From assembly GCA_020832905.1 (NCBI GenBank), contig JAJHRG010000003.1, positions 62,001 to 126,000 of the forward strand: a stretch of 64,000 bases of DNA, given 5' to 3'. The translations under genes and the position numbers were made by a program. Shown here piece by piece: positions 546 to 62,153 of this stretch. Each line of letters opens with the position of its first letter. Within the stretch, counting starts at the first letter, position 1. The stretch is from Thermoproteota archaeon. GTDB lineage: Archaea > Thermoproteota > Methanomethylicia > Methanomethylicales > Methanomethylicaceae. Under the pieces are notes generated by a model. The model searched no databases and had not been told where the DNA came from. It saw only the letters and a program-made list of their open reading frames with translations.

Positions 546-1865
546 ATGAGTAATAATGAATTATTTTATATTGGAGAATATGTAATGAAAAATATACTAA
601 ATAGAGGAATGAATGATTGTATAGTTATTCCAATTCATATAAGAAAGACGATGATAAGATTTAGTAATAATGATATAGATGTTGTTCAAAATTGGTCAGA
701 AACAGGTGTAAAATTTTTAGCAATTAAAAATGATAAAAGTGTTATTGGATATATTGGAAATGTAAGTAAAGAAAGTATTGATAGAATATTAGAAAGAACT
801 TTAAAATTCTTATGTGAAAGATCAGCTATTATTCCAATAGGTAAAAAATTTCAAAAAAGATATTCAAAAGAAAAACTAAATGAAGAGAAAATGATAGATT
901 ATGTTTATTCTGCTATTAATTCTTCATTAAAAGAAGGTGCAGAAAGATGTGCTGGAGTATTTACAGGTTGTTTAAAATCTATTTGTATATTAAGTAGTAA
1001 AGAAGCAGAAGGATATGATGAAAGAATTACTTATGAATTAAATATAAGAGCATTTAAAGGAGAAATGAGTGGTCAAGGATTAAGTTGTGCAAATTCTATA
1101 AGTAAAATTAATAGTGAAGAAGCTGGAAAAGAAGCTGGTATTATAGCAAGTAGTGCTAAGGAATTTCTAAAATGGAATGAAGGAAAATATAGATTATTAA
1201 TTAGTCCAATAGTAGCAGCAAATTTAATGGAGAGATTAGTAAGTGCTACTTCTGCATTTAATATCGATGCTGGTTTATCTTGTCTTGTAGGAAAAATTGG
1301 AAAAAATGTTGTATCAGAAAAATTAACAATTATTGATGATGGTGTAATAGAAGATGGATTAAATTCAAGAATATTTGATGATGAGGGAATAGATGTAAGA
1401 AGAAATATTATTATAGAAAAAGGAGTATTGAAAAGCTACTTACATAATAGTAAAACAGCAAGAAAGTTTAATACTGAAACTACAGGAAATGCAGGATGGA
1501 TTAAACCTCATCCATGGAATATAATAGTAGAATCAGAAGAAATATCATTTAAAGAAGCTATGAGTTTACTAAAGAATGGAATTTATGTTACTAGTAATTG
1601 GTATACAAGATTTCAAAATTATAGAATTGGAGATTTTTCAACATTATGTAGAGATAATGTCTTCTTAGTAGAAAATGGAGAAATAAAAGGAGCTATAAAA
1701 GGTGTTAGAATAAGTGATAATTTATTAAGAATTTTTAACTCAGTAGATTATATTTTTAAAGAAAGAAAATGGATAAGATGGTGGGAAGTTTCAATACCAA
1801 CATTTATTTCCTCTATGATTTTAAATGATGTTTATATAACAAAAGCTCAGGGTTATATTACATGA
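546..1865 (+). CDS. TldD/PmbA family protein, TldE-like
   Basis: About 439 residues. The layout (N-terminal PmbA/TldD domain, central domain, C-terminal domain with the segment RIGDFSTLCRDNVFLVENGEI) matches the TldD/PmbA family, whose TldD-TldE heterodimers proteolyse small peptides. No HExxxH zinc motif is visible, so this is the TldE/PmbA-type subunit rather than the catalytic TldD; no TldD partner lies in the window. The ATG at 546 is chosen over the ATG at 507 because GGTGA sits just upstream of it and because 507 would overlap the preceding gene. The 3' end overlaps moeA by 4 bases (ATGA), which indicates translational coupling. Confidence 0.8.
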   Translation: MSNNELFYIGEYVMKNILNRGMNDCIVIPIHIRKTMIRFSNNDIDVVQNWSETGVKFLAIKNDKSVIGYIGNVSKESIDRILERTLKFLCERSAIIPIGKKFQKRYSKEKLNEEKMIDYVYSAINSSLKEGAERCAGVFTGCLKSICILSSKEAEGYDERITYELNIRAFKGEMSGQGLSCANSISKINSEEAGKEAGIIASSAKEFLKWNEGKYRLLISPIVAANLMERLVSATSAFNIDAGLSCLVGKIGKNVVSEKLTIIDDGVIEDGLNSRIFDDEGIDVRRNIIIEKGVLKSYLHNSKTARKFNTETTGNAGWIKPHPWNIIVESEEISFKEAMSLLKNGIYVTSNWYTRFQNYRIGDFSTLCRDNVFLVENGEIKGAIKGVRISDNLLRIFNSVDYIFKERKWIRWWEVSIPTFISSMILNDVYITKAQGYIT

Positions 1866-3085
1866 TGGAAAAAGGATTTAAAGAATTAAAAAATGTTGAT
1901 GAAGCATTAAGTATAGTAATGAATATTTTTGGATCAAAAAATTTTGAAAAAGAAGAAGTAAAGCTAAGTGAAGCTTTAGATAGAGTATTAGCTGAAGATA
2001 TAATATCAGATATTGATATACCTCCTTTTGATAGAGCTGCTGTAGATGGATTTGCTTTAAAATCATATGAAACATTTAGTGCAAATCCATATAATCCTGC
2101 AATTTTTAAAATTAAAGGAATTATAGAAGCTGGAGTTGAAAATGAAGAAATTGAAGTAAGAGAAGGAGAATGCTATGCAATATATACAGGTGCTCCTATA
2201 CCAAAAGGAGCAGATGCAGTAGTAATGGTTGAAGATTGTGATTTTGATGAAAATTATGTAAGAGTAAAAAAACCAGTACCAAAGTATGCAAATATTTCAT
2301 TAAAAGGTGAAGATATAAAAAAAGGAGAAATTATAATGAGAAAAGGACAATTGATAAGACCATGGCATATTGGTGTACTTTCATCTATAGGAAGAAAAAA
2401 AGTTATTGTATATAGATTACCAATTGTAGGTATATTTTCTATTGGTAATGAATTAATAGATTATGAAGATAAATTAACTAAAGGAAAAATTATTGATTCA
2501 ACAAGACCTATGATAATTAGCTTATTAAAAGAAATTGGATGTAATGTAATTGATAAAGGAATTGTAAAAGATGATTATAATGAAATATTAAATACATTAA
2601 AAGAACTTTCAAGTATTTCTGATATTATAATTACTATAGGTGGAACTTCTTTAGGAGGAAAAGATTTAGTACCAAAGGTTATTAAAAATATTATATTTCA
2701 TGGATTAGCAATAAAGCCAGGAAAACCTACAGGATTTGGAATTTTTAATGAAAAACCTGTATTAATGCTTCCTGGATATCCTGTTTCTGCATTAGTTGGA
2801 TTTGAATGTATAGGAATGCCATTACTATCTCATTGGAGAGGAAAGAAAATTGAAAGAAAAAAGATAAAAGCTATATTATCAAGAAGAATTCCAATAACTC
2901 CTGGTATAAGACATTTCTTAAGAGTTTCTCTTAAAAAATTAGATAATAAATTAATTGCTGAGCCAATTGCTCTTACAGGCTCAGGACTTTTATCATCTAT
3001 TACAAAAGCAGATGGAATTGTTGTAATTAAAGAAAATATAGAAGGATTAGAAGAAGGAGAAGAAGTTGAGGTAGAAATTTTATGA
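1862..3085 (+). CDS. moeA: Molybdopterin molybdenumtransferase MoeA (first copy)
   Basis: A full-length 407-residue MoeA. It shows the FDRAAVDGFAL segment near residue 60, the TGAPIPKGADAVVMVE segment near residue 110, the GGTSLGGKD molybdopterin-binding loop near residue 260 and the PGYPVSALVGF segment. MoeA inserts molybdate or tungstate into adenylylated molybdopterin in the cytoplasm; in a thermophilic archaeon the metal may be tungsten. It starts inside the TldE stop (ATGA) and its own stop overlaps the next moeA in the same way. A 48-nt tract (2186-2233) is identical to the second moeA. ATG at 1865 is an alternative start three bases downstream. Confidence 0.95.
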   Translation: MMEKGFKELKNVDEALSIVMNIFGSKNFEKEEVKLSEALDRVLAEDIISDIDIPPFDRAAVDGFALKSYETFSANPYNPAIFKIKGIIEAGVENEEIEVREGECYAIYTGAPIPKGADAVVMVEDCDFDENYVRVKKPVPKYANISLKGEDIKKGEIIMRKGQLIRPWHIGVLSSIGRKKVIVYRLPIVGIFSIGNELIDYEDKLTKGKIIDSTRPMIISLLKEIGCNVIDKGIVKDDYNEILNTLKELSSISDIIITIGGTSLGGKDLVPKVIKNIIFHGLAIKPGKPTGFGIFNEKPVLMLPGYPVSALVGFECIGMPLLSHWRGKKIERKKIKAILSRRIPITPGIRHFLRVSLKKLDNKLIAEPIALTGSGLLSSITKADGIVVIKENIEGLEEGEEVEVEIL

Positions 3086-5004
3086 GAAAAATTTTTCATG
3101 AGCTTGTAAGTATAGAAGAAGCATTAAATAGATTATTTAGCAAAATTAATAAAGATATTGAAACTGAAGTTATTGATATTTATAATGCATATGGAAGAGT
3201 ATTAGCAAAAGATATTATTTCTCCAATAGATTTACCTTCTTTTGATAGAGCAGAAGTAGATGGATATGCAGTATTATCATTAGATTTAGAAGGTGCTTCT
3301 GAACAAAATCCTATTAAGCTTAAAGTAATTGGAAATATAAATCCTGGAGATAGTAATTTAAAAGAAATATCAAGAGGAGAATGTATTGAAATTTCTACAG
3401 GTGCTCCTATACCAAAAGGAGCAGATGCAGTAGTAATGGTTGAATATACAAGAAGAAGAGGAGATTATGTTGAAATTTTTAAATCAGTAACACCAGGTGA
3501 AAATATTGCTTTTACTGGTTCTGATATAGAAATAGGAACAATTGTTTTAAGAAAAGGAACTTATCTTGGTGTTAAAGAAATTGCTCTTTTAGCAGCATTA
3601 GGATTTAAAAAAATTGAAGTTTATAAAAAACCATTAATTGGAATAATATCTACAGGTAATGAAATTTTAGATCAAGAATGTATTTTAGAATATGGAAAAA
3701 TTTATGATGTTAATGCTCCTATGCTTTATAATGCATTAAAAGAAGAAGGAGTAGATGTAATATTCTTAGGAAGAGCAAAAGATGATTATAATGAAATAAA
3801 GGAATTATTAGCTAATGGATTAGAAAAATGTAATGCAGTTATATTATCAGGAGGTACTTCTGCAGGTATTGGAGATATTGTTTATAGAGTTTTAGAAGAT
3901 TATTGTGATCAAGGAATAATTGTTCATGGTCTTAAAGTTAAGCCAGGAAAACCTACAGTTATTGCTATACATAAAGGAAAACCTATATTTGGTCTTCCTG
4001 GATTTCCTGTTTCTGCATTAATAATATTCAATGAAATTGTAAGACCATATATTCATTATATAACAAAAAAGAAAAGAAAAGAAGAAAAGAAAATTATTGC
4101 TTATCTTTCTGATAGAATAAATACAATAAAAGGAAAGAAATGGTTTCTTCCAGTACATCTTATAAAAAGAAATTCAATTATTGCTTATCCAATTTTTATA
4201 AGTTCTGGAGCAATTGGAACATTATCTAAAGCAGATGGTTATATAGTAATAGATGATAAAAAAGAATTCTTAGATAAAGGAGAAAAAGTAGAAGTAAATT
4301 TATTTAGTGAAGAATTAGCAGATATTGTAATAATTGGTAGTAATTGTCATGCTTTAGATATATTAGTTGAAATAATTTTTGAAAAATATGGATTAAAAAC
4401 TAAGCTTATAAATGTAGGATCATTAGCAGGATTAGAAGCTATAAAAAGAGATGAAGCTGATATTGCAGGTATTCATTTATTTGATCCAGAAACTGGAACA
4501 TATAATAAACCATTTCTTAGAAAAATGAATATTCCAGAAGATTATCTTATAAAAGGTTATAAAAGATTACAAGGAATAATGGTTAAAAAAGGAAATCCAA
4601 AGAATATAAAGGGAATTGAAGATTTAATTGAAAAAGATATTACATTTATAAATAGAAATAGAGGATCGGGAACAAGAGCTTTAATTGATTACCTATTGAA
4701 AAAAATTTGTAATGAAAAAGGATTAAATTTTAATGAAGTTATTACAAAGATAAAAGGATATAGAATTGAAGCAAAAACTCATTCTGCAGTAGCAGCTGCT
4801 ATAAGCCAGGGAAAAGCAGATATGGGAATAGGAATATTAAGTGCTGCAATTCAATATAATCTTGATTTTATTCCATTATGTTATGAAGAATATGATTTTG
4901 TTATTAATCCTAATGGAAGATTTAATAATATATTTATAGAATGTTTAAAATCAAAAGAATTTTTTGATAGAATAAGTAAACTACCAGGATATAAAATTGA
5001 ATAA
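3082..5004 (+). CDS. MoeA fused to a C-terminal periplasmic-binding-protein-like domain
   Basis: 640 residues. Residues 1 to about 410 are a second MoeA, with FDRAEVDGYAV, TGAPIPKGADAVVMVE and GGTSAGIGD motifs. From about residue 410 a type 2 periplasmic-binding-like domain follows, with IIGSNCHALDIL, the RNRGSGTRALIDYLL loop and a repeated ADIAGIH/ADMGIGIL pattern typical of the molybdate/LysR-substrate-like module seen in archaeal MoeA fusions. The domain has no signal peptide, so it acts in the cytoplasm, probably sensing or delivering the oxyanion or the cofactor. It overlaps the first moeA by ATGA. Paired MoeA proteins in archaea are often read as Mo- and W-specific, which is inference here. 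Confidence 0.92.
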   Translation: MRKIFHELVSIEEALNRLFSKINKDIETEVIDIYNAYGRVLAKDIISPIDLPSFDRAEVDGYAVLSLDLEGASEQNPIKLKVIGNINPGDSNLKEISRGECIEISTGAPIPKGADAVVMVEYTRRRGDYVEIFKSVTPGENIAFTGSDIEIGTIVLRKGTYLGVKEIALLAALGFKKIEVYKKPLIGIISTGNEILDQECILEYGKIYDVNAPMLYNALKEEGVDVIFLGRAKDDYNEIKELLANGLEKCNAVILSGGTSAGIGDIVYRVLEDYCDQGIIVHGLKVKPGKPTVIAIHKGKPIFGLPGFPVSALIIFNEIVRPYIHYITKKKRKEEKKIIAYLSDRINTIKGKKWFLPVHLIKRNSIIAYPIFISSGAIGTLSKADGYIVIDDKKEFLDKGEKVEVNLFSEELADIVIIGSNCHALDILVEIIFEKYGLKTKLINVGSLAGLEAIKRDEADIAGIHLFDPETGTYNKPFLRKMNIPEDYLIKGYKRLQGIMVKKGNPKNIKGIEDLIEKDITFINRNRGSGTRALIDYLLKKICNEKGLNFNEVITKIKGYRIEAKTHSAVAAAISQGKADMGIGILSAAIQYNLDFIPLCYEEYDFVINPNGRFNNIFIECLKSKEFFDRISKLPGYKIE

Positions 5005-6489: not shown

Positions 6490-9339
6490 TTACTTAAATT
6501 TAAATCTCATTTTTAGTGATTCTTTTTCCTCTCTTAATATCATATCAATAAGAATATCTAAATCTTTTATATTTGATGATGCTATTTTAATAATTGATGG
6601 CCATGATAGATTTTTTGCAGCTATTGCTAATATAGCTGGTAATCCATATTTTTCAATAAGTTCTCCAATTTCCATAGCATCTCTATACATTTTCTTAAAT
6701 CTTTCAGAAATTCTTCCTTTTTCTGTAACTTCTATTACCATTTGATTTACTTCATTAGGATCTCCATCTAGTAATGCTATTCTTTTTGATTTACAAATTG
6801 GACATTTTAATTCATTTAAAATATCCTTTATCTTTACAATTTCTAAATACTTAAAACATTCTGTACATAATGCAATTCTTGCTTCATTTAATATTCTTGC
6901 TTTTCCAGATTCAATTAATATTCTTCTTAATCTATCTGCAGGAATAATATCAGATTTCCAACTTAATTTTCTTAAACCAATTCTTGAAATTGGTGATAAT
7001 CCTTCTATTATTTTAATTTCATATTCTCCTTTCTTAATTTTTTCAATAACATACTTAAGTCCTTCTATATCTAAGTCCTTATATGATATCTCTCTTAATG
7101 TTTCTTTCCATATAATAGTTCCTTTTAAACTTTCCATAAGTTGATTTATTCCAACATCACTTAAATCAGCATTTTTTGATATTATACCAAATCTCTTTGC
7201 TACATGTAGTAATCTTCTTTTAAATAATCCACTTCTTTCAATAGCTTTTTCAATAATTTTCTCTATTTCTTCTACATTAATATCATTAATTATCTTTAAT
7301 AAAGTTTTTACATCAATTGATGTTTTTAAGAAAACTCTATATGGATCTTGAGAAACTCCAACACCACTTCCAGTATATTCTGTTATTAAATATCCTAGTA
7401 CTCTTGCTAATGCTTTATTTATCATTAATCCAAATGTACAATTTATTATAATATAATCCTCCCATTCTTCAATAGTTATAACTTTATGAGTTGGTATTTC
7501 CATATTTCTTTCAAATTGTTCTTTAACTTCACTTAATGCTTTTTTAAGTAAATCCTTAGAAACAGGATAAATTTTACATAATTCATTAATAATATCATCA
7601 AATTTTACTCCTTCTTTTAGCTTTCTATAAACAAAATCTCTTATTTCTCCAACTTCTTGAGCAACTTCAAAGAGAACAGGAATTTCATCTCCAATCCAAT
7701 CTGGTATAGCACCAGTAGGATCATTTTCTGCTTTTACATAAACTATATCATTGTAAATATGTAGAATTTTCCAAGGAGATCCTCTTACAATAAATTTTAC
7801 ACCTGGTTCTCCATATTCAGCTACAAAAGCTTCATCTAACATTCCTACAGCTTCATCTTTTTCTTCATCAATTACAAGATAATGTTTTTCCTCTGGTATC
7901 ATAGATAGATTTTCAAAATAATATTTAAATACAGCATCATATGGTCTTGCTTTTACAACAATATTTTCTTCTGGTATATAAAGTAATAACCTTGGTCTTC
8001 TATTACTCATATATTCAAGAACTGATATTAATTCTTCTTTTGTTAAATTTCTATAAGGATATGCTTTTCTTACTAATTCTAAAATTTCATCTACTTTCAT
8101 TCTTTTATATTCTATAATTAAACCTGCAATTTGATGAGTTAATACATCTAATGGTTTTTCTATAATTTTAACATCTTCAAGTTCTTCTTTAAGAGCACGT
8201 CTTGCTATTACAATAGATTCAAGAAAATCATCAGAATCCATAGCAATTATAACTCCTTTTGCAATTCCACCAATCCAATGACCTGCTCTTCCTATTCTCT
8301 GAACTAATCTTGTTACTTGTCTTGGAGAGTTATATTGAATTACTAAATCTATAGTACCAATATCAATTCCAAGCTCAAGAGAAGATGTACATACTACTCC
8401 TTTTAATTCTCCTCTTTTTAATCCTCCTTCAGCTTCTATTCTTGAAGTTTTTGAAAGACTTCCATGATGTATACTTATTGGAATATTTATATCCCATACT
8501 CTAAATCTACTTGCAAGTACTTCAGCTTCAGATCTTGTATTTGTAAAAACTAATGTAGATCTATTTTCATCTATTAGTTCTTTTATTCTTCTAAGTCTTG
8601 CAGCAACTTCAGGAAAAGTTGCTAATTTTTCACTAAGATAAATATCATCTTCTCTTACTTCTGGCATTTCTACACTTAATTTCATTATTCTTTGAGCAGA
8701 AACTTTTACAATTTCACAATTTCTTCCAGTACCAACTAAAAATTTTGCAACTTCTTCAGGAGATCCTATAGTTGCAGATAATCCTATAATTTGTGGCTCT
8801 TTTTCTAATATTTTCCTTAATCTTTCTAAAGCAATTGATAATTGACTTCCTCTTTTATCATCTGTAAGTTCATGTACTTCATCTACTATAATCCATTTTA
8901 CTTTTGATAAATGTTTTCTTAATACTTTTCCAGTAAGTATTGCTTGTAGTGTTTCAGGTGTTGTAATTAATATATCAGGAGGAGATGATGCTTGCTTTCC
9001 TCTTTCTCTTACATCAGTATCACCATGTCTTACTGAAATTTTAAAATCTAATTTACTACACCACCATTGTAATCTCTCCATTAAATCTCTATTTAATGCT
9101 CTTAATGGTGTAATATAGAGAACTTTTATTCCTGGTTTTCTTTCTTCTCTTAACATCATATCTAATATTGGAAGAAATGCAGCTTCAGTTTTTCCAGTAC
9201 CTGTTGGTGCAATTATTAGTACATTTTTTCCTTCAAAAATAAGTGGAATAGCTTTTTTCTGAGGTTCTGTAAGCTCATTAAATCCTTTTTCTTCTAATAA
9301 TTTTTGAATTGGTTTTGAAAATAATTCCTTCATTTCCAC
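6490..9339 (-). CDS. Lhr-like superfamily 2 ATP-dependent helicase
   Basis: 949 residues. Motif I APTGTGKT lies at residues 44-51, motif II DEVH at 153-156, motif III as LSATIG, and motif VI as QRIGRAGH, followed by a long Lhr-type C-terminal region with winged-helix and Lhr core domains. A CTEC ... CPIC pair near residues 840-865 forms a probable zinc site. Lhr-family helicases translocate 3' to 5' on single-stranded DNA and act in repair or replication-associated remodelling. The start MEMKEL has a second ATG two codons in. It is divergent from sfsA across only 36 bp and convergent with the small unknown gene with no gap. Confidence 0.92.
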   Translation of the reverse strand: MEMKELFSKPIQKLLEEKGFNELTEPQKKAIPLIFEGKNVLIIAPTGTGKTEAAFLPILDMMLREERKPGIKVLYITPLRALNRDLMERLQWWCSKLDFKISVRHGDTDVRERGKQASSPPDILITTPETLQAILTGKVLRKHLSKVKWIIVDEVHELTDDKRGSQLSIALERLRKILEKEPQIIGLSATIGSPEEVAKFLVGTGRNCEIVKVSAQRIMKLSVEMPEVREDDIYLSEKLATFPEVAARLRRIKELIDENRSTLVFTNTRSEAEVLASRFRVWDINIPISIHHGSLSKTSRIEAEGGLKRGELKGVVCTSSLELGIDIGTIDLVIQYNSPRQVTRLVQRIGRAGHWIGGIAKGVIIAMDSDDFLESIVIARRALKEELEDVKIIEKPLDVLTHQIAGLIIEYKRMKVDEILELVRKAYPYRNLTKEELISVLEYMSNRRPRLLLYIPEENIVVKARPYDAVFKYYFENLSMIPEEKHYLVIDEEKDEAVGMLDEAFVAEYGEPGVKFIVRGSPWKILHIYNDIVYVKAENDPTGAIPDWIGDEIPVLFEVAQEVGEIRDFVYRKLKEGVKFDDIINELCKIYPVSKDLLKKALSEVKEQFERNMEIPTHKVITIEEWEDYIIINCTFGLMINKALARVLGYLITEYTGSGVGVSQDPYRVFLKTSIDVKTLLKIINDINVEEIEKIIEKAIERSGLFKRRLLHVAKRFGIISKNADLSDVGINQLMESLKGTIIWKETLREISYKDLDIEGLKYVIEKIKKGEYEIKIIEGLSPISRIGLRKLSWKSDIIPADRLRRILIESGKARILNEARIALCTECFKYLEIVKIKDILNELKCPICKSKRIALLDGDPNEVNQMVIEVTEKGRISERFKKMYRDAMEIGELIEKYGLPAILAIAAKNLSWPSIIKIASSNIKDLDILIDMILREEKESLKMRFKFK

Positions 9340-11019: not shown

Positions 11020-11544
11020 TTAATCTACTTTATAACCAGCTATAGATTCTACTAATTTTTTAATATCAACTTCAGCTTTTGTTCTCCATCCAATATATAA
11101 ATTATCATCTTTTTCTTCTAAATAGCCTTTTTTTATGAACATATTAATTACTTTATCTATTTTCCAATCAGGAAATTTTTCTTTTAGTATTTCTTGTAAT
11201 TCTTGCTTTTTTACAGAATTTCTTGTAGCAATAATTGCTATACTAATAGCTAGTATTGCAAGTTCATCTATTCTCCAACTTGATAATTCCTCTGGTATAG
11301 ATTTAAATGTAACATAAAATCTTGCTTTATCAAAATCATTTTCATCTTCTAACTCATGAATAATTTTTATTTCAAGACCTAATTCTTCTAATTTCCTATT
11401 CAATATTCTTATAATATTTAAGTAATCTTTTCCTAATGCTTTTCTTAATTCCCATCCTTTTACACCTGGTAAATGATGATGTTGAAATAATAATAATTGT
11501 AATGCTTTTTTAAGTTTTCTTGATAATATTGCTTCTTCACTCAT
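11020..11544 (-). CDS. Tandem winged-helix (KITE-like, ScpB/Nse1/Nse3-type) subunit
   Basis: 174 residues with two predicted winged-helix units: residues about 10-90 (LPGVKGWELRKALG, then helices and a wing) and about 100-160 (LAILAISIAIIATRNSVKKQELQEIL, then a second helix-turn-helix). This size and layout resemble KITE subunits, which bind the kleisin of SMC-ScpAB, SMC5/6 (Nse1/Nse3) and Wadjet complexes. The assignment rests on fold-like pattern and on context rather than on a diagnostic motif. It overlaps the upstream kleisin-like gene by ATGA and is the last gene of the SMC5-like operon. A simple ScpB is the alternative. Confidence 0.55.
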   Translation of the reverse strand: MSEEAILSRKLKKALQLLLFQHHHLPGVKGWELRKALGKDYLNIIRILNRKLEELGLEIKIIHELEDENDFDKARFYVTFKSIPEELSSWRIDELAILAISIAIIATRNSVKKQELQEILKEKFPDWKIDKVINMFIKKGYLEEKDDNLYIGWRTKAEVDIKKLVESIAGYKVD

Positions 11545-12167
11545 TTTTTATTTCTCCTTTTTTCCATCCATATATCATAATTAATTACAATAGGAAGAGA
11601 TTTTACTTCTCTCTTTACTTCTTTATCCTTACATAATTCTATTAGTATTTTTTCTTCTAATGGATTTATAATAAGTCTTGCAAAACCTTCTGAAATTATA
11701 AAGCTTAATAAATATGCTCTAAGAATTGTTTCTTCATAACTATCTCTTATAATAAAATCCCAATAATCAATAGGTTCTTTTAAGTTTTTAAGTTCTTCTT
11801 TTATTTTACTAATTTCATCATTAAATTTTCTATCAGATAATATTTTTAAATTAATTAATTCTGATATTTTAATTGTTTTTTCCTTTAATTCCTTAGCTAA
11901 TTCTAATTCTTTTTTTCTTTGTGATAATGGAATTAAAACCTTCCAATAATCTAATGCATTTAGTAATTTTTTAGTAGTTAATTGTTCAATAGATACTATT
12001 GGATGCCATGATGATAAAAATATTGAAGCTAATTCCTTTTTTCCTAATATTCTTATTTTTGAATCAATAATAAAAGGATCAATAAATAAACCTAAAGCTT
12101 TTCTTTTAATCCAATCATTTTGAAGTTCTAATATAAATGATAATTCTTTTATAGCTTCAGAATCCAT
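11541..12167 (-). CDS. Kleisin-like subunit of the SMC5-like operon
   Basis: 208 residues from the first in-frame ATG, but open coding-like sequence continues upstream to about 12307 (see separate entry), giving roughly 254 residues. The protein is helical, with a charged middle and a C-terminal segment YLLSFIISEGFARLIINPL that looks like a short winged helix such as those ending ScpA and Nse4 kleisins. It sits between the SMC-like ATPase and the KITE-like gene with ATGA overlap downstream. Kleisins bridge the two SMC heads. Sequence similarity alone is too weak for certainty, so the call depends on the operon and on the C-terminal pattern. Confidence 0.5.
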   Translation of the reverse strand: MDSEAIKELSFILELQNDWIKRKALGLFIDPFIIDSKIRILGKKELASIFLSSWHPIVSIEQLTTKKLLNALDYWKVLIPLSQRKKELELAKELKEKTIKISELINLKILSDRKFNDEISKIKEELKNLKEPIDYWDFIIRDSYEETILRAYLLSFIISEGFARLIINPLEEKILIELCKDKEVKREVKSLPIVINYDIWMEKRRNKK

Positions 12168-12307
12168 TATTAATTCTTCTATAGATTTTAATTTTGGTAA
12201 TAATTTTCTTAAAACTTGAAGTTTTTGTTGAATATCTACAATAAAAGGATCTCCACCTTTTGTTCTAATAGTTTGACATAAATTTATAATTTTTAAGATT
12301 TCTTCAT
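12168..12307 (-). other. Probable N-terminal extension of the kleisin-like gene in a broken frame
   Basis: Upstream of the ATG at 12167 the same frame stays open for 46 or more codons and reads like protein (for example EEILKIINLCQTIRTKGG and IVDIQQKLQVLRKLLPKL), with no ATG, GTG or TTG in frame. An ATG at 12307 overlaps the SMC stop codon exactly as in the other gene pairs of this operon, but it is out of frame and stops after four codons. Adding one base directly after that ATG would join it to the open frame. This suggests a missing base in the assembly, a real frameshift, or a non-standard start such as CTG. Confidence 0.6.
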
Positions 12308-14049
12308 GTAACAGTTTTAATCACCTCTGATTTACCATGAATATTTTGAACTAAAATTATATTAACTAAATTATTTACAATACTTATTTGACTTGGAGTT
12401 ATAACAATAAATTGAATATTTGGATTTTCATTTACAAAAGAAAATATCATATTCATCATAATTTCACGATTTCTTGGATCCATATGAACATCAAATTCAT
12501 CTATTGCTCTTATTGGAGATTTTAAATGATGTTGAAGTGCAAGTAGAAAAGCTGTTGTTGCAACAGTTCTCTCTCCACCACTTTGAGAGTATTCTCCTAA
12601 TAATACAGGAGATGATCCTCTAAATCCAGCTGTAATTTCAATTCCAGCTTTTTCATAATCTTCTGCATTAGAAATTCTTATATCTCCTGTACCTCCAACA
12701 TTTGCTAAAATTGATTTGTAAATAGGATTAATTTCTTCTATTAAATTTTCCATTACATTTCTCCATACTTTTTTTCTTTCTTCAATTTCTTCTAATAATT
12801 TCTTTCTATTTTCAATTATGTTTTCTATTTTTTGCTTTAATTCATTATAAGTTTCTAAATATTTTTGATATAATAGAGGAGTATCATCAGGTATTTCTCT
12901 AAGAGATAATAAATGAGCATTTACAGTTTTTAATTCATCAGATATTTCAGAAATTGTTCTTGTTGTATTGATTCTTTCTCCAATTTTATTCTTATCAATT
13001 TTATTTTTAATTTCAAAAAGAGCTTTTTTAGCATCATTAATTGAAGAATATAATTCTTTTATTTCTTCTTCAATTTTTTCTCTCTTATAATTTAATAATG
13101 CACTATCAACTCTTATATTTACATAATTTTTTATTATTTTGTCTAATTCTTCATTTACTAATCCTATTTCTTTTAAATTATTTTCTAAAATTACTTTTCT
13201 AAATTTCTCCTTAAGATATAAATATTCATTCCATAATTTTACTGATTCTTCTTCTTTTTTAATTATTTCATTCTTTATGAATTCTAATTGAGAATTTTTA
13301 AGTTTTATTTTATCTTCTATTTGAGTAATAGTATTTTCATATTTTATTATTTGAGCCCATATTAATTCTCTTTCTAAATATGATTTTCTTTCTAATAATT
13401 TCATTTTCTCAAGATATTTTTCATATTTATCCTTCCAATAGTTTAATATTTGTTCAGTACTTTTTAGTAAATTTGATGTTACTTCTTCTTCTCCTATAAC
13501 TTTCTTAAGTCTATTTTCTGCTTCTTTTATTGCTTCTCTATATCTAGAAAATCCTACTGCTTCTTCAACCATTTTAAGTTTTTCCTCAGGAGGAATAATA
13601 GCAAATTCTTCAATCATATTTTGATGCATTATTACTAGCATATTATCAGGATTAATTCCAGCATTTTTAAAAATTCTAGTAACATCAAATTTACTAACTT
13701 CTCTACCATTTATTTCAAACCAATATCTTCCATCTTTTTTTAAATATCTAGAAATAGAAACAACATCACTATTTATATGTGAAATAGGACGTTTTTTATT
13801 TATTTTACTATTATCAAGTAAAATTGTAACTCTAGCAGTATCTTTCCCTCTTCTTATTAAATCTGATAGTTTTTTTGATCTTTCAGTATAACTTTGTCCA
13901 ATTGCTACAGAAATACCAAGTAATATAGAAGATTTTCCTGCACCATTTGGACCACATATTATATTTAAACCTCTTTTTAATGGTATTCTAGCATATTCAT
14001 ATGACATAAAGTTTTCAAGAATAACCTCAAGTATTGCTAAACTTCCCAT
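12304..14049 (-). CDS. Short SMC5-like ATPase
   Basis: 581 residues. The N-terminal head has LENFMSYE and Walker A GPNGAGKSS at 33-41, then SDLIRRGKDTARVTI. The segment MLVIMHQNMIEEFAIIPPEEK closely follows the SMC5 pattern (Q.....EFA..P.E). A coiled coil of about 250 residues follows. The C-terminal head has EDYEKAGIEI, signature SGGERT at 490-495, Walker B AIDEFDVHMDPRN near 515-525, and FIVITPSQ, again SMC5-like. SMC5 proteins are usually about 1,000 residues with a hinge; here the coil is short, I see no hinge domain and no CxxC zinc hook. It begins an operon with kleisin-like and KITE-like genes. Alternatives are short haloarchaeal Sph-type or other SMC-superfamily proteins. Confidence 0.85.
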   Translation of the reverse strand: MGSLAILEVILENFMSYEYARIPLKRGLNIICGPNGAGKSSILLGISVAIGQSYTERSKKLSDLIRRGKDTARVTILLDNSKINKKRPISHINSDVVSISRYLKKDGRYWFEINGREVSKFDVTRIFKNAGINPDNMLVIMHQNMIEEFAIIPPEEKLKMVEEAVGFSRYREAIKEAENRLKKVIGEEEVTSNLLKSTEQILNYWKDKYEKYLEKMKLLERKSYLERELIWAQIIKYENTITQIEDKIKLKNSQLEFIKNEIIKKEEESVKLWNEYLYLKEKFRKVILENNLKEIGLVNEELDKIIKNYVNIRVDSALLNYKREKIEEEIKELYSSINDAKKALFEIKNKIDKNKIGERINTTRTISEISDELKTVNAHLLSLREIPDDTPLLYQKYLETYNELKQKIENIIENRKKLLEEIEERKKVWRNVMENLIEEINPIYKSILANVGGTGDIRISNAEDYEKAGIEITAGFRGSSPVLLGEYSQSGGERTVATTAFLLALQHHLKSPIRAIDEFDVHMDPRNREIMMNMIFSFVNENPNIQFIVITPSQISIVNNLVNIILVQNIHGKSEVIKTVT

Positions 14050-14117: not shown

Positions 14118-14789
14118 ATGGTATTATCAGCTAAAATATTTAATGTAAAAGAAAGAACTGATTTAACTACAATAGCAGAAAAATTAAAAGGATTTAAGCA
14201 AGAAGAAGAAATAGAAGAAGGAAAAGTAATTACAGAAATACAAAATCTAAAAATTGGAAATAATTATATTGAAGGTATATTTTCTCAGGATATTCCTATT
14301 ACTTTTTATCATAGAGAAGGAGAAAAAACTATAATAAAAACCATAGAAGCACCTTTTTTATTTCAAATTTATAATGATAGAATCTTTTTAGTTGTTCTTG
14401 AAAAAAAGAGATTAGCAAATAACATAGCTAATCAGTTAAGTAAGATAATATTTATTACTACTGGAAGTATAGTTGAAGCAAGAATATCTCATGAAACATT
14501 AAGAAAATTTCATGAATCTAATCCAGAAGATACAAAAGTAATTTTCTTTGATAATGTAGATATTCCAAATATTAAAAAGTTATCACTTTATGGTTCTCAA
14601 CTTTTAAATACTAATTTATATAATGAATACTTATCTCATGGTAATATTTGGTATATAGTATTTAAATCAAAAAAATTTGGAATTATAGTAGGTATAACAA
14701 GAAATTGTGTAATTACATGCTTTAGTAAAATAGAACAAAAAGAATTTTTAAATTATATAAAAAAAGAAGTATTTCCACTTATAGAATAA
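14118..14789 (+). CDS. Conserved archaeal protein of unknown function
   Basis: 223 residues, divergent from the SMC5-like operon across 68 bp. No membrane segment, signal peptide or nucleotide-binding motif is seen. The C-terminal half (residues about 125-215) looks most conserved, with ISHETLRKFHE, VIFFDNVDIPNIKKLSLYG, NIWYIVFKSKKFGI and GITRNCVITCFSKI, an alpha/beta pattern. I have no function to offer. Its position opposite the SMC operon may mean a shared control region, which is inference only. The last 11 bases overlap the convergent membrane-protein gene. Confidence 0.7.
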   Translation: MVLSAKIFNVKERTDLTTIAEKLKGFKQEEEIEEGKVITEIQNLKIGNNYIEGIFSQDIPITFYHREGEKTIIKTIEAPFLFQIYNDRIFLVVLEKKRLANNIANQLSKIIFITTGSIVEARISHETLRKFHESNPEDTKVIFFDNVDIPNIKKLSLYGSQLLNTNLYNEYLSHGNIWYIVFKSKKFGIIVGITRNCVITCFSKIEQKEFLNYIKKEVFPLIE

Positions 14790-60897: not shown

Positions 60898-62153
60898 TGG
60901 ATATTTTTGATTTAAAAAGAGAAGAATTTATTAAATGGATAAATGATGAAAATAGAAGAAAAGGAATTTCAAGAGCAGTATCATCATATGTAAGTGCAAA
61001 GGAATATGTTTTATCAAAAATGCCTGAACTTGAAAAAATAAGAAAAGAAGTAAGAAAAATTAAAGAAAAAAGTATTGATAATATATTTGAGCTTTTAAAA
61101 ATAGCTATGGAAAATATTGAAGAATCTCATGGAAATGCATATTTTGCTAAAAATTCTATAGAAGCTAGAAAAATAATTTTAGATATTATAGGAGAGAATA
61201 AATTAATAGTAAAATCTAAATCATTAACATCAGAAGAAATTGAATTAAATGAATTTTTAGAAGAACATGGAAATAAAGTTATTGAAACAGATTTAGGAGA
61301 ATTTATAATACAATTAAGAAAAGAAAAACCAACTCATATAATAAATCCATCAGTTCATGTACCAAGAGAAGAAGTTGCAAAAACTTTTTCTAAATTAATT
61401 GGAAGAGAAGTAAAACCAGAAATTAAAGAATTAGTAAAAATTGCTAGAGAATATCTAAGAGATAAATTTTTTAAAGCTGATGTTGGAATTACTGGTGCAA
61501 ATGTTATTGCAGCTAATACTGGAACATTATTTATAATTGAAAATGAAGGAAATGCAAGATTTGTAAGTAATGCTCCTCCTATTCACATATGTATAGTTGG
61601 TATAGAAAAAATTGTACCAACTCTTGAAGATGCTTTTAAAATTGTTCAAATATTACCACCATATGCTACTGGTATACCCATGTCTGCATATGTATCTATG
61701 ATTACAAGTCCAAGTAGAACTGCAGATATTGAAAAAACATTAGTTTATGGGGTTCATGGTCCTAAAGAATTACATGTAGTATTTTTAGATAATGGAAGAT
61801 CAGAAGTAATTAAAGATCCTATATTAAAAGAAGCACTATATTGTATAAAATGTGGTGGATGTATGTATGAATGTCCAGTTTATAGAGTTGTAGGTGGAAG
61901 TTTTGGTTATAATTATTTTGGAGGAATAGGAATTATATGGAGTGCATTTACATCAGGTATGGAAAAAATAGCTGCTACGATTGATGTTTGTACTAAATGT
62001 GGAAGATGTAAAGAATTATGTCCTTTAGAAATAGATGTACCAAAAATGATTGAATATTTAAAAGCAAAACTTGTAGAAAAAGGATATATTTCAAAAAGAC
62101 ATAAAGAAATAAGAGATAATATAATTAATAAAAATAATCCATTTGGAGAATAG
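60897..62153 (+). CDS. LutB-like iron-sulfur protein with LUD domain
   Basis: 418 residues. A LUD-type domain (residues about 60-300, with GITGANVIAANTGTLFI and ENEGNARFVS) is followed by two [4Fe-4S] ferredoxin motifs, CIKCGGCMYECPVYR (about 322) and CTKCGRCKELCPLEIDVPKM (about 362). It fits LutB of the lactate-utilisation system and pairs with the CCG protein. No LutC is seen; the LUD domain here may fill that role. The substrate is not proven. Confidence 0.88.
   Translation: MDIFDLKREEFIKWINDENRRKGISRAVSSYVSAKEYVLSKMPELEKIRKEVRKIKEKSIDNIFELLKIAMENIEESHGNAYFAKNSIEARKIILDIIGENKLIVKSKSLTSEEIELNEFLEEHGNKVIETDLGEFIIQLRKEKPTHIINPSVHVPREEVAKTFSKLIGREVKPEIKELVKIAREYLRDKFFKADVGITGANVIAANTGTLFIIENEGNARFVSNAPPIHICIVGIEKIVPTLEDAFKIVQILPPYATGIPMSAYVSMITSPSRTADIEKTLVYGVHGPKELHVVFLDNGRSEVIKDPILKEALYCIKCGGCMYECPVYRVVGGSFGYNYFGGIGIIWSAFTSGMEKIAATIDVCTKCGRCKELCPLEIDVPKMIEYLKAKLVEKGYISKRHKEIRDNIINKNNPFGE

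Follow-up and report, generated by a model that had tools for sequence, protein, structure and literature searches.

The 64,000-nucleotide (nt) stretch of DNA analysed here (the window; positions 62,001 to 126,000 of the forward strand of contig JAJHRG010000003.1, assembly GCA_020832905.1) comes from a Thermoproteota archaeon of the family Methanomethylicaceae, class Methanomethylicia, with a genome of 1.16 Mb that is 92% complete. Three co-directional open reading frames (ORFs) at positions 11020–14049 of its minus strand, in the order ATPase, kleisin, KITE, probably encode a minimal archaeal Smc5/6-type complex, consisting of an Smc5/6-type ATPase, an Nse4-like kleisin, and an Nse1/Nse3-like KITE protein (Table 1). 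This interpretation had been proposed in a first-pass annotation made from the sequence alone, and it is supported by profiles of the ATPase heads, by a tree of the C-terminal heads, and by the matches of the two small proteins to Nse4 and Nse1/Nse3. The three-gene reading of that annotation left out a linked fourth gene, designated X223.

Table 1. Features of the SMC operon and its surroundings (positions within the window; aa, amino acids; ABC, ATP-binding cassette; AF2, AlphaFold 2)
Feature	Position	Strand	Description	Evidence
ATPase	12304..14049	-	compact SMC5/6-type ABC ATPase, 581 aa	SMC_N 1.5e-35; SMC5 top in PDB; trees
Kleisin	11541..12314	-	Nse4-like, 257 aa, translated from CTG; helices at the N-terminus, a linker, and a winged helix at the C-terminus	Nse4_C, PDB profile search, Foldseek
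Kleisin start codon	12312..12314	-	CTG, within the end of the SMC gene	GAGGTGAT ribosome-binding site before it
KITE	11020..11544	-	Nse1/Nse3-like, 174 aa, tandem winged helices	AF2, Foldseek, MAGE
X223	14118..14789	+	223 aa, conserved, divergently oriented; candidate fourth component	adjacency and co-occurrence; no Pfam or PDB match
Lhr-type helicase	6490..9339	-	949 aa; possible functional neighbour	WH_Lhr and DEAD_assoc domains, synteny

Architecture of the ATPase

The ATPase is composed of an N-terminal head (residues ~1–185), arms (~175–425), and a C-terminal head (~417–581). All motifs listed in the first-pass annotation were found in it, namely Walker A GPNGAGKS, HQNMIEEFA, EDYEKAGIEI, the signature QSGGER, DEFDVHMDPRN, and VITPSQ, and comparison with 29 relatives showed most of them to be invariant or nearly invariant. 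Since the Walker A, signature, and Walker B motifs are intact, and invariant across the relatives, the protein is expected from its sequence to be an active ATPase.

The window ATPase gave no match to the Pfam family SMC_hinge, which was also missing from the 25 families that hit a majority of the 29 members, and a CxxC zinc hook was present in none of these members (0/29), in agreement with the earlier remark that neither hinge nor zinc hook is visible. The coil is indeed short, as the heads of the family members are separated by 242–355 residues; at ~0.15 nm per residue, this corresponds to arms of ~16–20 nm. A truncated or frame-shifted gene was ruled out, since the same length class is kept in dozens of genomes. 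Among named public records, the closest relative is from Methanomethylicales and is 58% identical to the ATPase over the portion present on that record's contig. An SMC_N search of the genome revealed one such gene, in line with the proposed absence of a second SMC.

Affiliation of the heads

The full-length ATPase profile, built from 16 orthologues and searched against PDB chains, matched SMC5 (4e-58) ahead of SMC6 (9e-52) and archaeal Smc (2e-43), while SMC1–4 ranked below SMC5 and SMC6. Head-only profiles were used to exclude the contribution of the coiled coils, and control profiles were made from 20 canonical archaeal and bacterial SMCs. The C-head profile of the ATPase family scored highest with human and yeast SMC5 (107 and 96 bits), followed by SMC6 (73/59), Smc (67), SMC1 (47), SMC3 (46), SMC4 (33), and SMC2 (26). 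With the canonical control the order was reversed: Smc had 238 bits, SMC4 155, SMC1 152, SMC3 130, and SMC2 122, and the lowest values among SMCs were those of SMC5 (72/56) and SMC6 (44). The N-head profile of the family yielded 92 bits with SMC2, 88 with SMC5, 84 with SMC6, and 73 with Smc; the corresponding control values were 229 (Smc), 138 (SMC2), 120 (SMC3), 51 (Rad50), 48 (SMC5), and 43 (SMC6).

In the C-head tree, human and yeast SMC5 were on the side of the ATPase family across a branch with 100/100 support, and a topology constraining SMC5 with canonical SMC was rejected in the approximately unbiased (AU) test (p-AU 0.028). In the N-head tree, support was 89/91 for the grouping of SMC5 with the ATPase family and 98/89 for that of SMC2 with canonical SMC, and the SMC5 branch was long. 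Eukaryotes are represented in both trees by the sequence stretches shown in the PDB search output, so the sampling is small. Neither the profiles nor the trees placed the heads firmly with Rad50 or a plain SMC. The SMC5-type character ascribed to the heads thus holds for the full-length and C-head profiles and for the C-head tree, while the N-head evidence taken alone is ambiguous.

Kleisin and KITE proteins

The Nse4_C domain was found in 16 of the 17 kleisin members, with a best value of 8e-8. When the kleisin family profile was searched against all PDB chains at a cut-off of E≤10, Nse4 chains were the sole matches. In a Foldseek search with the AF2 model of the kleisin, yeast Nse4 occupied ranks 1 and 2, followed by C-terminal domains of ScpA bound to Smc heads; the ScpA family itself gave no match to the kleisin sequence. 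The first-pass annotation had described this gene as kleisin-like, and these results point specifically to Nse4. Weak matches of the kleisin profile were also obtained with ORFs that immediately follow the canonical smc genes of other archaea, which is expected because of the common kleisin superfamily.

The open frame of the kleisin reaches 147 nt upstream of its apparent ATG, and an alignment showed that this extension is conserved in relatives. Comparison of the window with 12 close relatives showed a CTG start codon in 11 of these 13 sequences and TTG in the remaining two. Each start is preceded by a ribosome-binding site resembling GGAGGTGG or GAGGTGAT, which in the window is a strong Shine-Dalgarno sequence. 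Since the frame extends to a conserved CTG and the added N-terminal residues have a predicted local distance difference test score (pLDDT) above 90 in the AF2 model, the protein was taken to consist of 257 aa rather than the 208 aa of an ATG-only reading, which would also leave a gap of 136 bp after the ATPase gene. In the longer version, the kleisin gene shares 11 nt with the end of the ATPase gene. CTG is a rare start codon in archaea and may set a low stoichiometry of the kleisin. Of the two ATGA overlaps reported earlier, the one at the kleisin/KITE junction (11541–11544) is real, but at the SMC/kleisin junction the ATG within '..ACATGA' opens a frame of just four codons.

The AF2 model of the KITE protein (pLDDT 88) contains two winged helices. 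A Foldseek search of PDB with this model placed Nse1 or Nse3 (MAGE-G1) chains at ranks 1–5, and these five were the sole matches at E≤0.001; a JetABC chain was sixth and ScpB thirteenth. The tandem winged-helix pattern recognized in the first-pass annotation is therefore reproduced by the model, and each of the two small proteins shows the fold, kleisin or KITE, that had been proposed for it. At the sequence level, MAGE was matched by 6 of 17 members and SMC_Nse1 by one of 17, while a phmmer search of PDB with the KITE sequence alone returned nothing useful. Because a single KITE gene is present, a KITE homodimer in place of the eukaryotic Nse1/Nse3 pair is suggested.

Distribution among archaea

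In each of the 40 family loci where the contig is long enough, the three genes lie side by side and keep their order (40/40), a conserved arrangement that is not due to chance. The titles of the trio-bearing records include Methanomethylicales, Bathyarchaeota, Hadarchaea, Thermofilales, and Nitrososphaeria. Of the 398 Thermoproteota genomes searched with the KITE profile, 156 were positive. In the window's family, the KITE gene was present in 19 of 21 genomes, and both misses were incomplete assemblies. In the Hadarchaeal phylum, the KITE gene was found in 21 of 28 genomes.

Both SMC_hinge and ScpA were absent (0/40 each, with positive controls) from the genomes of the window's class, which are drafts, 21 of them at least 90% complete. 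Because neither marker occurs in these 40 genomes, the SMC operon probably encodes the sole SMC-kleisin machine of the class. Across the 398 Thermoproteota genomes, 74 have both systems, 82 only the compact operon, 94 only a hinge-bearing SMC, and 148 neither. Given the 74 genomes with both and the 82 with the compact operon only, the compact complex accompanies canonical SMC in some genomes and takes its place in others. Five genomes of the window's class (G023, G026, G030, G032, and G039, families f3 and f6; 93%–96% complete) contain neither a hinge-bearing SMC nor the operon KITE.

The X223 gene

The X223 gene begins 68 bp upstream of the ATPase gene. It adjoins the latter divergently in genomes from several higher taxa; in another family, it is located ~3 kb downstream of the KITE gene. 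X223 was found in 131 of 156 KITE-positive but only 16 of 242 KITE-negative genomes (Fisher's test, 8e-60). At the level of 64 families, a comparison that reduces phylogenetic double counting, both genes were present in 33 families, KITE only in five, X223 only in three, and neither in 23 (1.6e-9). X223 had no match in Pfam, PDB, or padloc. This co-occurrence indicates that X223 probably works together with the complex encoded by the SMC operon. The X223 family is highly conserved in archaea, and divergent copies occur in the complete genomes G102 and G180 with no SMC operon nearby.

Comparison with known SMC systems

Like eukaryotic Smc5/6 (Smc5, Smc6, Nse1, Nse3, and Nse4), the archaeal system combines SMC5/6-type heads with an Nse4-type kleisin and an Nse1/Nse3-type KITE fold. 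Unlike the eukaryotic complex, which contains two different SMC proteins, the operon has one SMC gene, as well as one KITE gene instead of two; its ATPase has no hinge and short arms, genes for Nse2 and Nse5/6 are missing from the operon, and the KITE protein lacks a RING domain. The absence of an Nse2-like partner noted in the first-pass annotation applies to the operon proteins, in which no Nse2/Nse1-RING domain was found, the rest of the genome not having been searched for Nse2. SMC ATPases of archaea that share a clade with SMC5 and SMC6 have been reported under the name "SMC5/6-related" (Yoshinaga and Inagaki 2021, cited and reused in PMC9389158). Their heads, like those of the compact ATPase, group with eukaryotic SMC5 and SMC6, and the compact ATPase probably belongs to the same class. 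As described there, they are known from the ATPase level, to which the operon adds the kleisin, the KITE protein, the loss of the hinge, and X223. No description of archaeal Nse4-like or Nse1/3-like partners, hinge loss, or X223 was found in the literature searched, outside of which were most subscription journals and all preprints.

Several observations weigh against the assignment to a minimal Smc5/6-type complex. The N-head profile separates SMC5 poorly from SMC2, and the N-head tree fails to reject alternative placements. Support for the KITE protein from sequence alone is weak (E ~0.002). The formation of one complex by the three proteins, its stoichiometry, homodimerization, and role are inferred by homology. 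The lack of canonical SMC throughout the class was deduced from draft genomes, and 74 of the 156 operon-bearing genomes also encode a hinge-bearing SMC, so that the operon does not always provide the sole machine.

Of the alternatives considered, the strongest, although unlikely, is an SMC-based defence system similar to Wadjet or Lamassu, with X223 as its effector. Wadjet (JetABCD) likewise comprises an SMC, a kleisin, a KITE protein, and one extra gene (PMC10586767), and the resemblance extends to the KITE fold, for which a JetABC chain was the next Foldseek match after Nse1 and Nse3. The tight co-occurrence of X223 would suit an effector. However, JetC of Wadjet has a hinge and JetD is a TOPRIM nuclease, and no gene of the operon matches JetA, JetB, or JetD; neither padloc nor Pfam gave a JetD/TOPRIM match among the four genes, in line with the annotation's reading without a JetD-like partner. 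Padloc models of SMC-like ATPases match the head, but these matches reflect a generic ABC ATPase; neither X223 nor the kleisin is hit by any padloc model, and KITE by just one, at 0.024. The neighbourhood of the locus is kept across higher taxa, and viral contigs yielded no relative. A patchy distribution is usual for defence systems, in contrast to this locus, which is nearly universal in the window's family and common in the Hadarchaeal phylum.

Somewhat less likely still is that the operon represents an ordinary archaeal condensin (Smc-ScpA-ScpB) whose hinge disappeared and whose arms became shorter in this lineage. The Smc-ScpAB complex of bacteria and the Smc-ScpA complex of archaea resemble the operon in having a kleisin, a KITE protein (in bacteria), and an SMC homodimer, which for the operon is inferred; they possess a hinge, long arms, and canonical heads, and the compact family differs in all three respects. 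A condensin origin would fit the apparent replacement of canonical SMC by the compact operon in the class, the nearly equal N-head scores of SMC2 and SMC5, and the weak kleisin-profile matches beside canonical smc genes. However, the C-head and control profiles split the two classes cleanly, and joining SMC5 to canonical SMC is rejected in the C-head tree. The kleisin matches Nse4_C and not the ScpA family, KITE matches Nse1/Nse3 ahead of ScpB, and the two systems exist side by side in 74 genomes.

A Rad50-like or coalescin (ASRP)-like repair ATPase, accompanied by unrelated transcription-factor-like small proteins, agrees with the similar size, the short arms, and weak NCBIfam matches of the ATPase to Rad50 and ASRP, but is highly improbable given the missing CxxC hook, Rad50 scores far below those of SMC5/6 with the family profiles, the presence of a separate Rad50 in the genome, and the identification of the small proteins as kleisin and KITE by both profile and fold. 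On the basis of the profiles, the lack of the hook, and the C-head tree, an affiliation of the heads with Rad50, ASRP, or plain SMC was rejected. Coalescin and Sph are also small archaeal SMC-related ATPases, some of them in lineages without canonical SMC; they mostly carry a zinc hook (PMC9389158), whereas the compact family has no hook, possesses SMC5/6-type heads, and is accompanied by kleisin and KITE proteins. The separate Rad50-like protein of the window genome (L003, positions 1480–3501, minus strand) is unusually short (673 aa) and contains a CPTC zinc hook.

Proposed mechanism and implications

In the proposed minimal Smc5/6-type complex, two copies of the ATPase would homodimerize, with their heads closing on ATP. 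A single kleisin could bridge the heads asymmetrically, its N-terminal helices binding one neck and its C-terminal winged helix the other head, and a KITE dimer on the kleisin linker would hold DNA to the engaged heads. The ATP cycle may then clamp, bridge, or move DNA. Contact between the arms, if any, would be made via a small coiled-coil apex. In SMC motor models, the ring is closed by the hinge and the arms are ~50 nm long. Since usual ring closure is impossible without a hinge, and the arms measure only ~16–20 nm, the complex probably functions as a DNA clamp centred on the heads or as a motor with short steps, and less probably as a large loop-extruding ring of 50 nm. Its role could be chromosome maintenance or organization, as the only SMC-kleisin machine of the lineage.

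A broader proposal, put forward tentatively, is that the hinge-less Smc5/6-type complex together with X223 is the only SMC machine of the class, that the hinge and long arms are dispensable, and that the single-SMC, single-KITE state ancestral to eukaryotic Smc5/6 is preserved here. A family with a conserved kleisin and KITE protein and without a hinge represents a natural deletion experiment on hinge function. The archaeal Smc-ScpA complex has been argued to be KITE-less, with no smc, scpA, or scpB detectable in Crenarchaeota (PMC7055376); with the operon, prokaryotic counterparts of Nse4 and Nse1/Nse3 become available from archaea. The origin of Smc5/6 becomes directly testable, the small proteins are suitable for structural work, and X223 offers a concrete new lead.

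Neighbouring helicase and other archaeal SMC proteins

In relatives from several higher taxa, the KITE gene is immediately followed on its 3' side by a convergent gene for an Lhr-type helicase, while in the window the genes for thioredoxin reductase and SfsA are located between them. This neighbour hints at a DNA-repair setting for the operon.

A record titled "Candidatus Hodarchaeaceae" (L068) was rejected as an Asgard carrier of the operon, since GTDB assigns its 1.1-Mb genome to the phylum that also holds Candidatus Hadarchaeum, so that the title is probably a naming error. The SMC proteins of Aenigmarchaeota (L110, L111, and L121; ~800–840 aa) were rejected as intermediates between canonical and compact forms because they keep the canonical hinge. 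These short canonical SMCs are a separate case of arm shortening.

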